DNA from: Salinirubrum litoreum | GTDB taxonomy: Archaea > Halobacteriota > Halobacteria > Halobacteriales > Haloferacaceae | DNA length: 64,000 nt | Assembly (NCBI RefSeq): GCF_020567425.1 | Contig: NZ_JAJCVJ010000001.1 | Span: 372,001 to 436,000 of the forward strand | Reading direction: 5' to 3' | Part shown: positions 4,491 to 11,841 of the stretch, piece by piece | Layout: every line of letters starts with the position of its first letter | Position numbering within the stretch: the first letter of the stretch is position 1 | Position numbers and translations under genes: made by a program | Notes under the pieces: model-generated | The model's input: the letters and a program-made list of their open reading frames with translations, nothing else | What the model was told of the DNA's origin: nothing | Databases searched by the model: none

Positions 4491-5540
4491 TCACGCCGAG
4501 ACGACCTCGTAGCGCGTCACCAGCACCCGAACCAGCAGGTACGCACCGACCGCCAACACCCCGTAGCCGGCGACCGTCAGATACGTCACCGCGTCGGCGC
4601 TCCCGATAGCCAGTTTCGCCACCGTGTTCGCCGGACTGCCCGGCAGCAGTGTCGCGCCGCCGAAGACCGCCAGCACGCCGATGGAGTAGAGGAACTGTGC
4701 GGCCCGCCGGTCCGGAGCCAGCAGGCCGACCGCCGACCCCAGGCCGACCACCAGCAGCGAGAACGCCGCCACCAGGCCGATCAACACGACCGGGTTCGAG
4801 ACGGCGGTCCCGTTGAACCGCAGGAGTGCGATCCAGAGCCCGGCCTGTGCAGGTGCGAGCACTGCCGCCGCGAGCAACTTCCCGTCTACGATGTCCAGCA
4901 GGCTGATCGGCGCGACCCGCAGCAGTTCCAGCGTCCCGCGCTCGAACTCCTCGGTCAGGGAGTCCACCGCGATAGAGCCCGAGATGAACACCGGCAGAAA
5001 GAGCAGCAGGGGCACCAGCACGGTGTAGGTGAAGCTGTAGTACGGCGACGAGGTTCCCTCGGGCGGCAGGTCCAGCGGCGTCGAATCGAGATAGGCCGCC
5101 CGGTCGGCGCGCTCCCCGCGCTCGAACGCCCGGAGCGCGTCCCGGAGTTGGACGACCACCAGCGTCGTCCGGACGTTCGAGTCCGGCGCTAGCGCCTCGA
5201 CCTGCACCCGTCCCTCTACCGTCTCCGTGGCCAACACCGCGTCCACCTGCCCGTTCTCGAAGGCCGTCAGTGCGGCGTCTCGGGAGTCGTACCCCTCGCC
5301 CCCGAGACTCGGCGTCTCCCGCACCGCGTCCAGCAGGTCCGCTCGTGCGTCGCCGGTCACCGCGACCTCGACCTCGTACCCCTCGACGCTTCCAGGGTCG
5401 TACAGCGAGACGAGGCCGACGACGAGGAACGACGAGAACGCGGCGATGAACAACTGGATCAGCAGTGCGAGCACGATGGTCTTCTCCCGTCCCAGCACCC
5501 GGAGTTCCCGCCCGGCGATCGTCAGGCGCGGGTCAGCCAA
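4491..5540 (-). CDS. ABC-2 type exporter permease
   Basis: 349 residues with a first membrane helix at about 20-45 (IVLALLIQLFIAAFSSFLVV), a large extracytoplasmic domain (about 50-160), then five more helices. The segment LTEEFERGTLELLRVAPIS is the coupling region typical of NatB/ABC-2 permeases that pair with an ATPase. It is the last gene of a three-gene operon on the complementary strand and overlaps the preceding permease-protease gene by eight bases. It probably forms a heterodimeric exporter with that protein. The substrate cannot be inferred from sequence. Confidence 0.85.
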   Translation of the reverse strand: MADPRLTIAGRELRVLGREKTIVLALLIQLFIAAFSSFLVVGLVSLYDPGSVEGYEVEVAVTGDARADLLDAVRETPSLGGEGYDSRDAALTAFENGQVDAVLATETVEGRVQVEALAPDSNVRTTLVVVQLRDALRAFERGERADRAAYLDSTPLDLPPEGTSSPYYSFTYTVLVPLLLFLPVFISGSIAVDSLTEEFERGTLELLRVAPISLLDIVDGKLLAAAVLAPAQAGLWIALLRFNGTAVSNPVVLIGLVAAFSLLVVGLGSAVGLLAPDRRAAQFLYSIGVLAVFGGATLLPGSPANTVAKLAIGSADAVTYLTVAGYGVLAVGAYLLVRVLVTRYEVVSA

Positions 5541-7413
5541 GGAGACTCACCACCGCGAGGTTGTAGGCCGCGTGGACCACGACGGCGGCCGACAGGCCGA
5601 CGCCGTACCACCGGAGGTTCGCCCGCGCGCCGAGTGCCGACAGCGATGCGGTGACGGCGTGGAGTGCGAGCGGTGCGAGCAGGAGCGCCAGCGTGAAGGC
5701 CAGACTCGGTCCACCACCACCCGCACCCGCGACACCGACACCCGAGGGGGCGAACGCCGCCTCGCCCAGTGGTAGCTCCGGCAACCCGATCAACTGGACG
5801 ACGACGGTCAGTTTCTCGCCGACGAAGAAGCCGAGGCCCGACAGCACGCCGAGGACGAGTGCCACGCCCACGGTTCGTTCGAACCGCGCCTTCTCGAAGC
5901 CGGCGTAGACGTGGACGCTCTTCGCCACCTCCTCGACGCCCGCGATGGTGACGAGGAGCAGTGGGACCGACACGTCGATGGGGAGCGCGAACAACACCGC
6001 GACGGCCAGCAACTCCGCGATGAAGACGAACGGGATGAACAGCCCCGACAGCACCGCGACCGACGAGGCCCCGCGAAGCCGACTGTCCAGCGCGTCCAGC
6101 ACCTTCAGCGGCACCGGGCGCTGGGTGAACATGTCCTCCTCGCGGTAGACGCCGAGTCCCAGGAGGAACAACACCGAGGAGCCGAAGTAGAACGGCCCGG
6201 TCGAGAACAGATACTCGACGAGTGTCGCGCCGCCGCCCTGCAAGTCTCTGACGACGAGCGTCAGCGGCGAGATGAGCGCGATGGGCGTCACGTCGGCGAA
6301 GATGGCCGGCACGAAGGCGTAACTCGTCAGGAACGTCGAGATGGCGACCGTGACGAAGGTGAGTTCCTTGAACGACCGGGCGAACATCCCCGCCGTGAAG
6401 GTCGCAGAGAGAAACAGCAGCGCGACCGGCACGACCGCGACGACCGACAGCAGGCCACCACCGATGGCGAGGGCGATGCCGGTCGTCACCGCGACCATCC
6501 CGAGGAGGTACGGCGCGGTCTTCCCGGCGACGATGTCACCCGGCGTGACCGGCGAGACGAGCAGGAGTTCGCCGCGCCGGCCGATTCGTTCGTCGAGGAT
6601 CGTACTGCCGTAGGCCTGGATGACGAAGTTCATCGGGACCAGAAAGGCGAACGCGAGGATCAGCGACTCGAAGGGGAACGGCGGGTCGATGTCGGCCGGC
6701 GACCCGGAGTCGCCGCCGGACACGAGACCGCCGCCGAATCCGGGAACACCGACGCTCCCGCCGGAGTCGCCGTCTCCGCCCGCGCCTCCACCGCCCGCGC
6801 CGACACTCCCGAAGTCCGTGTCGCCGGACCCATCGCTCGATCCGCCATCTGCGCCCGATCCGGTGCCACCGCCGTCGCCGCCGCCACCGGTCTCACCACC
6901 GCTCCCGACGTCGGCCCGACTCTCGTAGCGCAGATCGACCAGCACCGGGAACGCGGCCGACTGGTTCGCTTCCCCGGCGAGGAGTCGGTCGTTGTGCGCC
7001 TGCACCGCAGCGCGGAACTCCGCGAGCGCCGCCTGTCCTTTCTGTCCCGGCACAGGTCTGACGCGCCCGTCTGCGAGGACGCGGAGGTCGACGTCGTCGG
7101 CACCGGGCGGTTTCGCGGTCAGTGCCGGCCGGTCCTTGACGACCTCGTGGTACTGGCTGTCGTCGTCGACGGCGACACGGTAGACGCCCTCGTCGAGTGC
7201 CAGTCCGCCCGCGCCGGTGGCGACGACCGTGCCGACGACCGCGACCGAGACGAGAATACTGACGACGCCGAGTATCGCGGTGGTCCGGTCCACGCTGCCG
7301 ACGCCTCGAGAGACCTCCCACCGGGCGATGCGGGTCACGTCCCGCGTGTGCTCGCGGAGCCACGTCGGAAGACGTTGGAGGCGAGCGAGCAGGGCAGTGA
7401 GCCGACTGCTCAC
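5533..7413 (-). CDS. ABC-2 permease fused to PrsW-type intramembrane protease
   Basis: 626 residues, two modules. Residues 1 to about 400 form an ABC-2 permease: a helix near 45, an extracytoplasmic domain, a very Gly/Ser/Asp-rich stretch (about 170-245), then helices around ERIGRRGELLLVSPVTPGD, the coupling motif of NatB-like permeases. From about 430 onward it is PrsW-like: GVEEVAKS (the paired glutamates of the family), then GLGFFVGEKL, LHAVTASLSALG and VVVHAAYNLAV, which carry the conserved Glu and His residues of this CPBP-related metalloprotease clan. Overlaps of eight bases with the downstream permease and four with the upstream ATPase imply translational coupling. Role of the protease half is unknown; processing of an exported peptide is one reading. 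Confidence 0.85.
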   Translation of the reverse strand: MSSRLTALLARLQRLPTWLREHTRDVTRIARWEVSRGVGSVDRTTAILGVVSILVSVAVVGTVVATGAGGLALDEGVYRVAVDDDSQYHEVVKDRPALTAKPPGADDVDLRVLADGRVRPVPGQKGQAALAEFRAAVQAHNDRLLAGEANQSAAFPVLVDLRYESRADVGSGGETGGGGDGGGTGSGADGGSSDGSGDTDFGSVGAGGGGAGGDGDSGGSVGVPGFGGGLVSGGDSGSPADIDPPFPFESLILAFAFLVPMNFVIQAYGSTILDERIGRRGELLLVSPVTPGDIVAGKTAPYLLGMVAVTTGIALAIGGGLLSVVAVVPVALLFLSATFTAGMFARSFKELTFVTVAISTFLTSYAFVPAIFADVTPIALISPLTLVVRDLQGGGATLVEYLFSTGPFYFGSSVLFLLGLGVYREEDMFTQRPVPLKVLDALDSRLRGASSVAVLSGLFIPFVFIAELLAVAVLFALPIDVSVPLLLVTIAGVEEVAKSVHVYAGFEKARFERTVGVALVLGVLSGLGFFVGEKLTVVVQLIGLPELPLGEAAFAPSGVGVAGAGGGGPSLAFTLALLLAPLALHAVTASLSALGARANLRWYGVGLSAAVVVHAAYNLAVVSLLG

Positions 7414-8351
7414 CGGCCACCACCCGTGCGGTCCTCCGGCGAACTTGGTCCTGCCCGCTGGGTGCGGTCGGTCCCCGACTCGGCCTGCTGGCCCCCGGCG
7501 AGGTCGAGAAACACGTCTTCGAGACTCGGTTCGCGGGTCCGGATGTCCTCGACCGCGCCGCCCGACCGCTCGGCACGCGCCCGGATCGACTCGACCGCCT
7601 CCATGTCTGGGACGATCACGCGATGACGGTCGCCGACCTGGTCGCTCCCGTCGACCGGGACCGACGTGAACACGTGGTAGGTCGTCTCGCCGTGTTCGGC
7701 GCGGATCTCCGGGACCGTGCCGCGTGCGATGATCTCGCCGCGGTTCATGATGACGACTCGGTCACAGACGCTCTCGACGTGGTAGAGGTTGTGCGCGCTG
7801 AACAGCACCGTCTTCCCCTCCTCGCTCAGTTCCTTCGTGAACTCCAGGACGTAGTTCGTCGTGAGTGGGTCGAGTCCCGAGGCGGGTTCGTCGTAGATCA
7901 ACAGGTCGGGATCGTTCACCAGTGACCGGGCGATGGCGACCTTCCGTTTCATCCCCTTCGAGACGTCGCCGAGTCTGCGCTCCCGGTGGTCGAGTTCCAG
8001 TCGGTCGAGCGCACTCCCGATGCGTTCGTCCGCGACCTCGCGGGGGACGTCGTACAGATCGGCGAAGAAGCGCAGGTACGAGTGGGCGGTCATGTCTTCG
8101 TACAGCGGCGACTCCTCGGGGAGGAAGCCCAGTTCGTGGCGCATCTCGGGGTCGCCGGCGTCGTACTCGCCGACGCGGGCGGTTCCACCGGTCGGTTCGA
8201 TCAGACCGGCGAGCATCTTCAGCGTCGTCGTCTTCCCGGCCCCGTTCGGGCCGACGATGCCGAATATCTCGCCCGACTCGACCGAGAAACTGCTCCCGAC
8301 GACCGCCGCGAAGTCGCCGTACTCCTTCCGGAGGTCCTCGACTGTTATCAT
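7410..8351 (-). CDS. ABC transporter ATP-binding protein (NatA-like)
   Basis: 313 residues from MITVEDLRKEYGDF. Walker A GPNGAGKT is at 34-41, the Q-loop is near GFLPEESPLYEDM, the signature is GDVSKGMKRKVAIARS, and Walker B with the D-loop is LLIYDEPASGLDP. The H-switch is in LFSAHNL. The C-terminal tail (about 225-313) matches the extra domain of DrrA/NatA exporters. It is the first gene of the operon and its stop overlaps the next start by four bases. An open frame runs 45 codons further upstream but its composition is not protein-like. TTTAC-containing boxes on the complementary strand lie within 40 bases of this start. Confidence 0.93.
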   Translation of the reverse strand: MITVEDLRKEYGDFAAVVGSSFSVESGEIFGIVGPNGAGKTTTLKMLAGLIEPTGGTARVGEYDAGDPEMRHELGFLPEESPLYEDMTAHSYLRFFADLYDVPREVADERIGSALDRLELDHRERRLGDVSKGMKRKVAIARSLVNDPDLLIYDEPASGLDPLTTNYVLEFTKELSEEGKTVLFSAHNLYHVESVCDRVVIMNRGEIIARGTVPEIRAEHGETTYHVFTSVPVDGSDQVGDRHRVIVPDMEAVESIRARAERSGGAVEDIRTREPSLEDVFLDLAGGQQAESGTDRTQRAGPSSPEDRTGGGR

Positions 8352-8467
8352 CGGGTACTGAACTGGTAAACGGAATCGTCCGCCGTAAACGTGCGGGTAG
8401 CTGTCAGTCGTGAGTCGTGTCGGCGGTTGGAAGCCAGTCTTTAGTCGTCGGTCGCCGAACCCGGACC

Positions 8468-8683
8468 GTGAACCGCGATCTGACACCAGCCTCGGTCCTG
8501 TTCGTCACGGGGTTCGTGGCCGTGTTGTTCTTCATGGCTGGCGGACTCGTCCTCGTCGTCGTCGGCGACGTCGGCGTCCCCGCACTCACCGGGTTGGCCG
8601 CCGCTCTCGCCGGACTGGGTGGCGTCGTCCTGTTCGCGGGACTGGTCCTCGCTGGACTTCTCCGCGTCCGCCAGAAGGGGTGA
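8468..8683 (+). CDS. Small two-helix membrane protein
   Basis: 71 residues from a GTG (VNRDLTPASVLF). Two hydrophobic segments are separated by a short GDVGVPAL turn, and the protein ends in a basic RVRQKG tail, so both ends are probably cytoplasmic. It is divergent from the ABC operon. The family is unknown to me. The open frame extends 17 codons upstream but that part is Arg/Thr-rich and overlaps the promoter region, so the GTG is preferred. Confidence 0.6.
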   Translation: MNRDLTPASVLFVTGFVAVLFFMAGGLVLVVVGDVGVPALTGLAAALAGLGGVVLFAGLVLAGLLRVRQKG

Positions 8684-9553: not shown

Positions 9554-9596
9554 GACACCACCACGTCGGTCACTGTGTGACAGCGATAGTTACAAA

Positions 9597-9605
9597 AGAT
9601 TTACG
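9597..9605 (+). promoter_or_regulatory. TATA-like box for the small hydrophobic peptide
   Basis: AGATTTACG lies about 28 bases before the ATG at 9630, within an otherwise GC-rich stretch. This supports an independent leaderless promoter for the peptide. Confidence 0.5.
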
Positions 9606-9629
9606 TGGAAAGATACAGAATGGGAGTGT

Positions 9630-9773
9630 ATGTCGTTCGACTTCGACGCCCACGAGACGCTCGCACAGCACCCGAAACTCCTCTCGGCGCTCCTGACCAC
9701 CGGCGCACTGCTCTCGATGGCCGGGTCCGCCGTGGCGGTCTCCTCGTCGGTCGCCGGCCACTTCGGTCCGTAA
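9630..9773 (+). CDS. 47-residue hydrophobic peptide (DUF7503-like)
   Basis: MSFDFDAHETLAQHPKLLSA is followed by one hydrophobic segment and a terminal GHFGP. The layout of a short acidic head, a 'hP-Leu' segment, a Leu/Ala-rich helix and a C-terminal Gly-Pro matches a group of tiny haloarchaeal proteins I associate with DUF7503, though that name is from memory. It has its own TATA-like box. Its stop is four bases from the stop of the convergent CHAT protease gene, so the two genes meet tail to tail. Function is unknown. The hydrophobic segment could be a membrane helix or a secreted, cleaved peptide. Confidence 0.7.
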   Translation: MSFDFDAHETLAQHPKLLSALLTTGALLSMAGSAVAVSSSVAGHFGP

Positions 9774-9777
9774 CCGG

Positions 9778-11841
9778 TCACTGAACGGCGTAGTCTGTCG
9801 ACCACCCGAGGGTCCCGTCACGGACGACCGGCATCTCGGCTTGGGTGACGAACTCCCGAAGCGTCGCCTCGTCGACCTCGTACGTCTGACTCTCGCCTGC
9901 GACGAGTTCGTACAGACTCTCCTCGGTTACTTGCAGACTGCACATGCTTCCCATCCCCTGGTTCGTCGGGGGGTACGTCGTCACCGACAGGCGGTAGTCG
10001 TCGTCGCGTTCGTCGACGTGACAGACCGCCGGTTGCACCGTGTCGAACTGCGTCAGCGCCGCGCCGCCGTCGCCGACGACGATGTACTGGGTGCCGACGA
10101 AGCTGTGTTCTCTGACGATGTTCAGCGCAGAGCGCATCGGGAATCCGCAGTTCAGCAGTCGCGCGAGTAACTCGCCGACACCGACCGCACCGGTGTTGCT
10201 CACGTCGCTCAGGGTGACGACCCCGCCGAAACTCCCGCGTTCCAGCATGGCGAGTCCCTGCTGGTAGGAGCGACAGGCGTTCAGGAGGAAGGCGTCTACG
10301 CCGACGCGGTCGAGTGTTCGCACGTCGAGTCGCCCGTCGCGACACTCGAACCCGTTCGCGTCGATGTGGCCGATGTAGTGCAGAAAGTCGGTGTCGGTCC
10401 GCAGCACCTCCGTCAACTCGTCGGCCGACAGCGCCCGGTGATCGGTCACGGTGACGTTCGGAGCGTCACGCGATCCGTAGATGTCGTCGGTGCTGTCCAA
10501 CTCTGCGGTCATCTCCTCGTCGTTGCAGACGACGGTGATGTCGATGTCGTCGGTCTTCGGGGTGCGAGCGATCCGATTGCGGTAGCCGGCGGCCACGGCC
10601 TTCGACGCGCCGACCGGACAGCCCCTGCCGGCCCACATCTGTTCCAGCGAATCGGCCGGTTCGGGCTGGACGAAACTCGGTCGGGGGTCCGCACGCCCCT
10701 CGGGGTTCGGGACGCCCTTGCTCCGCGTGAACTCGTCGATGATCGCGTTTCTCGGCGACTCGGTCGGCGTGTACGACTCCGGACAGCGGACGTGGGCGAG
10801 TTCGTTGACGACGAACGGGAGCAGTTCGGCGTTGCCCGGTACCGGTACCACGTCGCTCGTGAGTCGCCACTGCGGGAGAGTCGGTTCGACTCGCTCGTAG
10901 GGAACCGAGAGGTACGCCCGCAGTTGTTCGGGGATCGACCGGTCGTACAACGCCGGGAAGTCGAGGTCGACGACGTCGGCGATCTCCCGACGCTCGACGA
11001 GGGCCACGTCGTAGAACCCCTCGTTGCGGGTGATGCAGTCGAAGAAGAGTACGCGCTCCAGCGTCCGCGCGACGCTCGTCTCGAACCCCGCTGGCCCGTC
11101 TAGCCGGTGGGAGAATCCCGTCTCCGTCACGACGCGCGGGACACCCCCCGGCACGACCTCGGCACCGAGGTAGTGTGCCAGCGACGCCACCGTGAAGATG
11201 GCGCTCGGGTCGGGCGGCACCTCGATCCTGACGCCCGTCTCCGGGCGGACGACGCCGTCGGGGATCGACAGTTCGTCGCCGAGTTCGACCTCCGGTGGGT
11301 GGCCCCGGAGCGTCGGGTAGGAGCGCTCGGGTGAGGTCGTCTTCAGCGCCGACCCGAAGGTCGAGACCGCCCGCATCAGGTCGCGGGGTCGCTCGGTCGT
11401 CGTCACGGTCGCGGCCGGCCTGTCGTGGTACGACCGGGCCCCGAGTTCTACGCGGGCCGGCCGCCCGAAGTCGATCCGCATCGTGTCTCTCTCCTCGTCG
11501 GTCGTCACCGACAGCGGCCCGACAGCTCTGAGGTAACACTTGATCGGTGCGGACAGTTCGACGATGTACTCGCCCGCCGAGAACGACTCGTCAGGGCCGT
11601 AGCCGACCTCACTCAGCATCTCGCCGTCGGCGTTCCGAACTGGAGTGAAGACGACACTCGGCAGTGTTATCGAATCGGTGGTGAACGAGACAGCACTGCT
11701 GACCGGGAAGTAGAACCGGTCCGGATCGATCTCGGTCGGGTCGACCGGGGTCGGCGTCGAGAGCACGTAGTGGCGACGTTCGATCGGATCGTGGATTTCG
11801 ATGCCGGGCTCTGGAACGCGTTCGAACGACGGTGTCTTCAT
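9778..11841 (-). CDS. CHAT-domain (caspase-like) protease
   Basis: 687 residues. The C-terminal third is a CHAT peptidase domain: DFLHYIGHIDANGF supplies the catalytic His (His492) and VDAFLLNACRSYQQG the catalytic Cys (Cys523), each preceded by the hydrophobic strand seen in caspase-fold enzymes. GGVVTLSDVSNTGAVGVGELL then forms the next strand and helix. Residues 1 to about 250 are beta-rich and unrecognised; residues 250-400 include helices around LYDRSIPEQLRAYLSVPYE. No TPR or other known sensor repeat is visible, unlike TPR-CHAT proteins. The start MKTPSFERVP was preferred because upstream codons enter a different compositional regime. The substrate is unknown; the convergent peptide is a candidate by position only. 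Confidence 0.85.
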   Translation of the reverse strand: MKTPSFERVPEPGIEIHDPIERRHYVLSTPTPVDPTEIDPDRFYFPVSSAVSFTTDSITLPSVVFTPVRNADGEMLSEVGYGPDESFSAGEYIVELSAPIKCYLRAVGPLSVTTDEERDTMRIDFGRPARVELGARSYHDRPAATVTTTERPRDLMRAVSTFGSALKTTSPERSYPTLRGHPPEVELGDELSIPDGVVRPETGVRIEVPPDPSAIFTVASLAHYLGAEVVPGGVPRVVTETGFSHRLDGPAGFETSVARTLERVLFFDCITRNEGFYDVALVERREIADVVDLDFPALYDRSIPEQLRAYLSVPYERVEPTLPQWRLTSDVVPVPGNAELLPFVVNELAHVRCPESYTPTESPRNAIIDEFTRSKGVPNPEGRADPRPSFVQPEPADSLEQMWAGRGCPVGASKAVAAGYRNRIARTPKTDDIDITVVCNDEEMTAELDSTDDIYGSRDAPNVTVTDHRALSADELTEVLRTDTDFLHYIGHIDANGFECRDGRLDVRTLDRVGVDAFLLNACRSYQQGLAMLERGSFGGVVTLSDVSNTGAVGVGELLARLLNCGFPMRSALNIVREHSFVGTQYIVVGDGGAALTQFDTVQPAVCHVDERDDDYRLSVTTYPPTNQGMGSMCSLQVTEESLYELVAGESQTYEVDEATLREFVTQAEMPVVRDGTLGWSTDYAVQ

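Follow-up and report, generated by a model that had tools for sequence, protein, structure and literature searches.

The locus

In the window, i.e. the whole stretch of 64,000 nucleotides that was analysed, two genes face each other tail to tail. The larger one (9778-11841, reverse strand, with an ATG start at 11841 in the open reading frame) encodes a 687-residue homologue of caspase-fold (CHAT-like) cysteine proteases, as judged from its reading frame, the fold search and its relatives. The smaller one (9630-9773, forward strand) encodes a peptide of 47 residues, MSFDFDAHETLAQHPKLLSALLTTGALLSMAGSAVAVSSSVAGHFGP, which matches the Pfam family DUF7503 (PF24335; E 1.6e-8, 34.4 bits against a curated cut-off of 27). 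Four bases (9774-9777) separate the two stop codons. Among relatives this distance ranges from -6 to 126 bases, 0 and -4 being the commonest values. A preliminary description of this DNA had proposed a 687-residue protein with a His492/Cys523 dyad and, four bases away, a 47-residue peptide with one hydrophobic segment and its own TATA-like box. Both reading frames and their coordinates hold, and in relatives, too, the peptide gene is preceded by an AT-rich stretch that resembles a promoter.

The peptide contains a single hydrophobic segment, residues 17-35 (9678-9734, forward strand; mean Kyte-Doolittle value of 1.66 over 19 residues), and a C-terminal tail, SSSVAGHFGP (9741-9770, forward strand), ending in a Gly-Pro that is conserved in 90% (Gly) and 88% (Pro) of 128 paired peptides. 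The putative promoter lies at 9589-9629 (forward strand), where the AT-rich block recurs in relatives. Another candidate, the element TTACGTGG, which precedes both genes in the window, was not seen in relatives and was dropped. DUF7503 is a real gene family, and its pN/pS of 0.26 among Haloferax copies implies that selection acts on the protein.

The catalytic residues of the protease are His492, in the motif HYIGH (codon at 10366-10368, reverse strand), and Cys523, in the motif LNAC (codon at 10273-10275, reverse strand). Both are kept without exception in the relatives compared, 81 of 81 on named haloarchaeal contigs and all 30 in whole genomes. Searches of Pfam, NCBIfam, PADLOC and PDB sequences gave zero matches for the protease. 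The Pfam CHAT profile (PF12770) matches neither the protein at E 10 nor the host genome; only with distant archaeal relatives does it reach E 0.006-0.02, below the curated cut-off. The N-terminus shows neither a hydrophobic stretch nor a signal sequence, and the protease is therefore probably cytosolic.

Predicted structure of the protease

An AlphaFold2 model built with 72 relatives (mean pLDDT 89.4, pTM 0.90) was compared with other folds using Foldseek and VIA-align. The similarities fall within residues 324-634: gingipain R (Z 19.4, rmsd 3.0, 241-244 residues), SAVED-CHAT (Z 17.5, rmsd 2.6, 170 residues), separase (Z 17.2, rmsd 4.1, 222 residues), the CHAT-bearing region of DdvA (Z 16.5) and TPR-CHAT (Z 13.6, rmsd 3.6, 216 residues). 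The catalytic caspase-fold domain would thus span residues 428-600 (10042-10560, reverse strand), the match to SAVED-CHAT covering 428-599. Residues 324-430 (10552-10872, reverse strand) align with the subdomain that precedes the catalytic domain in gingipain, separase and TPR-CHAT, the alignments starting at 324-335, and presumably form an inactive subdomain. These comparisons argue for a caspase-fold identity that is CHAT-like in structure. By its modelled fold and its dyad the protein belongs to the caspase-fold (clan CD) kind of peptidases, and peptidase activity is predicted. The CHAT label given in the preliminary description is hence upheld by the fold and not by the PF12770 profile. 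Since no profile matched over its cut-off, we call the protease CHAT-like by fold and do not file it under that family.

The large N-terminal region had been described as unassignable, and it indeed matches no known enzyme in sequence or fold searches. Residues 1-322 folded alone (pLDDT 92.6) are predicted to be largely beta and match no solved fold at E 0.001. A predicted beta-sandwich at residues 1-140 (11422-11841, reverse strand) bears a weak likeness to the beta-supersandwich of sugar-active enzymes and to the periplasmic domain of YidC (Z 5.6-8.9); the fold search with residues 141-322 matched nothing. There is no TPR fold among the structural matches of the N-terminal region, themselves weak (Z up to 8.9).

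Co-occurrence and adjacency of the two genes

In the genome search, protease homologues were found in 364 of the 392 sampled genomes of the order (93%) and DUF7503 in 332. The peptide family is present in 332 of the 364 genomes with the protease and in none of the 28 without it (Fisher test, p 2e-26, which is only nominal because the genomes are related). Two protease candidates were scored per genome, so that protease copy numbers are lower bounds. The host genome contains four protease/DUF7503 pairs, all convergent, and every one of its four DUF7503 genes is paired. The pair is present in at least 11 Haloferax species, and DUF7503 also in H. volcanii, which served as a control. Outside the order, the phylum sample holds relatives of the protease in only four genomes of a single family (f25), none with a recognisable peptide partner beside it.

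Among 80 loci from named haloarchaeal genomes, 73 of the 82 protease ORFs converge with a DUF7503 gene. Conversely, when 44 DUF7503 loci were collected without regard to the protease, 38 of them faced one. Four of the six unpaired loci are repeated copies in one genome, G180. Scattered over this genome are four or more repeats (L191, L195, L198, L201), some 250-380 bp long and 78-94% identical, and each bears an orphan DUF7503 gene whose encoded protein is identical in all four. Of 79 protease genes, 63 have a convergent ORF of at least 30 residues ending in GP within 150 bp; of 412 control ORFs, 5 do. This excludes chance as the origin of the arrangement. Furthermore, the distances among proteases are correlated with those among peptides (Mantel r 0.45, 0 of 999 permutations). 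Co-occurrence and adjacency were the checks suggested in the preliminary description, and both turned out in favour of the pairing. They refute the view that the two genes are mere neighbours with unrelated functions, to which we give next to no credence. The protease and the small peptide are a dedicated two-gene unit of haloarchaea.

A third gene accompanies some of the pairs. In 23 of 66 loci a DUF7504 gene lies directly upstream of the protease on the same strand (L041:7151-7861, L069:6917-7864 and others). In Haladaptatus it is fused to the signalling domain HalOD1, and the host genome has 14 DUF7504 copies, two of which adjoin proteases. Nothing besides DUF7504 is common around the pair. 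In the window, genes for an ABC transporter ATPase and two ABC-2 type permease-like proteins are found nearby (7410-8486, 5533-7413 and 4491-5540, reverse strand), and the list of open reading frames gives no sign of a link between them and the pair.

CHAT proteases elsewhere act in defence or cell death; for this locus, a defence role is not borne out. Neither protein has a PADLOC match and the protease family is near-universal in haloarchaea. Carriage of the protease by viruses was rejected, as none of its relatives was found in viral contigs. The distribution is chromosomal and near-universal, with several paralogues; PADLOC matches are lacking, and DUF7504/HalOD1 genes are neighbours in a third of the loci. 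This speaks for a regulatory or stress (or housekeeping) role rather than for defence.

The Gly-Pro tail and its natural variants

The consensus of the 128 paired peptides is MSDNTLAAYLAENPRMIGVLFTILLLLSQAGNAAAGNGGTIAGP. Pro14, Phe21, Gly31 and the final Gly-Pro are among its most conserved positions, and 113 of the peptides end in GP. The feature common to the partner peptides is a tail of the form ...[S/A/G]GP and not the hydrophobic segment; the N-terminal parts of the peptides that carry this tail are otherwise unrelated. In Haloplanus the partner facing the protease (L017/L092 in Haloplanus ruber, L020, L024, L011, L049) has no hydrophobic part and consists instead of a 13-residue unit, [YFSM][NT]ADGN[GS]GG[IV]SGP, repeated 2, 4, 7, 10 or 13 times in tandem, with the final copy ending the protein. 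The unit aligns with the usual tail (GNGGGISGP with GNGGTIAGP). Its Ser-Gly-Pro codons vary synonymously between copies, and it is therefore the amino acids that are being kept. One family (f7) has, in ten genomes, another protease, paralogue B (HYIGHC/LNACGS), which faces short non-hydrophobic peptides that end in [VI]S[TS]Y[GS]GP and are unrelated to the usual one. Conservation of the tail is thus independent of the membrane segment. Accordingly, the enzyme-effector pair of the preliminary description survives as a pair, given co-occurrence and adjacency, but the membrane segment does not survive as its essential part, since the Haloplanus and paralogue-B partners do without it and keep the Gly-Pro.

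We also considered that the tail might reflect the overlap of both stop codons in the DNA. This was rejected, since GP persists at gaps of up to 126 bp and since its codons vary synonymously, as the Haloplanus repeats show. In the common form of the tail no charged residue is conserved, and no obvious cut site can be read from it.

Tandem identical units are typical of peptide precursors, e.g. yeast alpha-factor. The peptide might hence be a precursor whose GN-GG-T-I-S/A-GP tail is released or modified into a signal or natural product, with the protease as maturation enzyme. This would fit the Haloplanus units kept by synonymous change, the resemblance to a signal sequence of a hydrophobic segment followed by small residues, and the fact that one genome may hold several pairs whose tails differ. 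Yet, no conserved exporter or receptor gene adjoins the pair, and an export signal is lacking from the peptides of paralogue B and of Haloplanus. We regard such a role as unlikely. One might speculate that a haloarchaeal caspase-fold enzyme matures short Gly-Pro-ended peptides, carried singly on a membrane-anchored precursor in the majority of species and in up to 13 tandem copies in Haloplanus. We find this distinctly unlikely, but if true it would be the first caspase-fold-dependent system of peptide signalling or peptide products in archaea.

Proteases without a Gly-Pro peptide

Eleven paralogue-B proteases have an intact dyad and no GP peptide within 1.1 kb, and the protease can hence work without such a peptide. 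In families other than f7, where paralogue B lacks a GP peptide within that distance, a gene for a TbsP-type transcription regulator adjoins it downstream (L140, L145, L161). Seven further paralogues (L164, L165, L166, L167, L168, L170, L172) lack both catalytic residues, the position of His492 being mostly Pro. This catalytically dead haloarchaeal subfamily has no GP peptide beside it. In one Haladaptatus clade the peptides end one step earlier (TIS, TIR, TVG), without GP, and the protease of the same clade differs close to its catalytic His, G497 being replaced by E, H or K. A change of the active site matching the loss of GP in one clade carries little weight, and the correlations from dead paralogues and Haladaptatus span few clades only. 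Wherever the GP peptide is present, His and Cys are invariant.

This last observation weighs on the idea of the protease protein as a regulator, which would use its caspase fold to bind the peptide and would leave it uncut. The existence of a non-catalytic subfamily and the adjoining DUF7504/HalOD1 genes, which point to signalling, would suit such a regulator, but the invariance of both residues speaks against it and we regard it as very unlikely.

The dead paralogues also bear on a third possibility, in which the peptide acts as an inhibitor or pseudosubstrate. Its Gly-Pro tail would sit in the active site and keep the protease inactive until the peptide is removed or pulled into the membrane, much like an antitoxin. 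That these paralogues keep no peptide would be consistent with this, as would the tail being the feature common to all partners and the separate putative promoter of the peptide gene; the tandem units of Haloplanus would make the inhibitor multivalent. On the other hand, the eleven intact paralogue-B proteases have no GP peptide within 1.1 kb, and repeats inside the chain would be of no use to an inhibitor that acts through its free C-terminus. Nor are the genes arranged as the two co-directional genes of a classical toxin-antitoxin operon, since they converge here as in 73 of the 82 relatives. An inhibitor thus seems rather doubtful.

How the pair might work

The peptide could be a substrate, an inhibitor or a signal precursor. 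Our preferred reading is that it is the dedicated substrate of the protease, although taken as a whole we hold this tentatively, as slightly more doubtful than probable. The contact point of the pair is probably the Gly-Pro tail. The caspase-fold protease, in the cytosol, would recognise this tail and, with less certainty, would cut the peptide. In most species the hydrophobic segment would hold the peptide in or at the membrane, and cutting would release or activate one of its parts. In about a third of the loci the upstream DUF7504 protein, fused to HalOD1 in Haladaptatus, may couple the unit to a signal. Because of the Haloplanus repeats, we argue that the tail site is either read internally or produced by cutting. 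Several points count against a substrate, among them that the tails do not show where a cut would fall. If the peptide inserts with its N-terminus in, the tail would be outside and away from a cytosolic protease. Also, the eleven intact paralogue-B proteases have no GP peptide nearby.

Some known systems resemble this unit. In Craspase, of type III-E CRISPR, TPR-CHAT (Csx29) is likewise a caspase-fold protease with a preceding subdomain, and its partner Csx30 is a dedicated protein encoded nearby, as is the peptide here. Yet, the partner is here a peptide of 44-47 residues, the ORFs read around the pair include no recognisable CRISPR component, and the first 322 residues of the protease match no TPR or solved fold at the threshold used. 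The CHAT and caspase-like activators of bacterial gasdermins are also caspase-fold enzymes adjoining a membrane-associated partner, but the facing gene is here a 47-residue DUF7503 and not a gasdermin, and several partner variants have no membrane segment. Fold and dyad are common to SAVED-CHAT (CBASS-like), separase and gingipain. However, we found no SAVED domain and no securin-like partner, and the signal peptide of gingipain is absent from the protease. Similarity to these proteins at the sequence level is too low for profiles to pick up. In the open-licence literature we found no paper naming DUF7503 or DUF7504 (PF24336), both Pfam families of unknown function, none joining CHAT domains with haloarchaea or Haloferax, and no published description of the protease-peptide pairing.

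Seth-Pasricha and colleagues (PMC3615174) described very high caspase-like activity in Haloferax volcanii, with a preference for Asp substrates and without an assigned gene, and stated that archaeal genomes lack clear caspase homologues. As DUF7503 is found in H. volcanii and the pair in so many Haloferax species, we hypothesize that the protease family is a candidate source of this activity. A caspase-fold family with an intact dyad, present in 93% of the sampled genomes of the order and endowed with a dedicated small partner, makes the H. volcanii question experimentally tractable, and the pairing provides a testable lead to the origin and target of archaeal caspase-like activity. The disk-forming signal of H. 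volcanii is a proteinase K-resistant small molecule (PMC12240190), and we have no evidence for a pheromone link of the pair to it.

These analyses provide a hypothesis of function both for DUF7503 and for the protease family, which is so far missing from Pfam and NCBIfam. Haloarchaeal plasmids also carry relatives of the protease; these are annotated mostly as hypothetical proteins, once as CHAT domain-containing and once as a caspase family protein.
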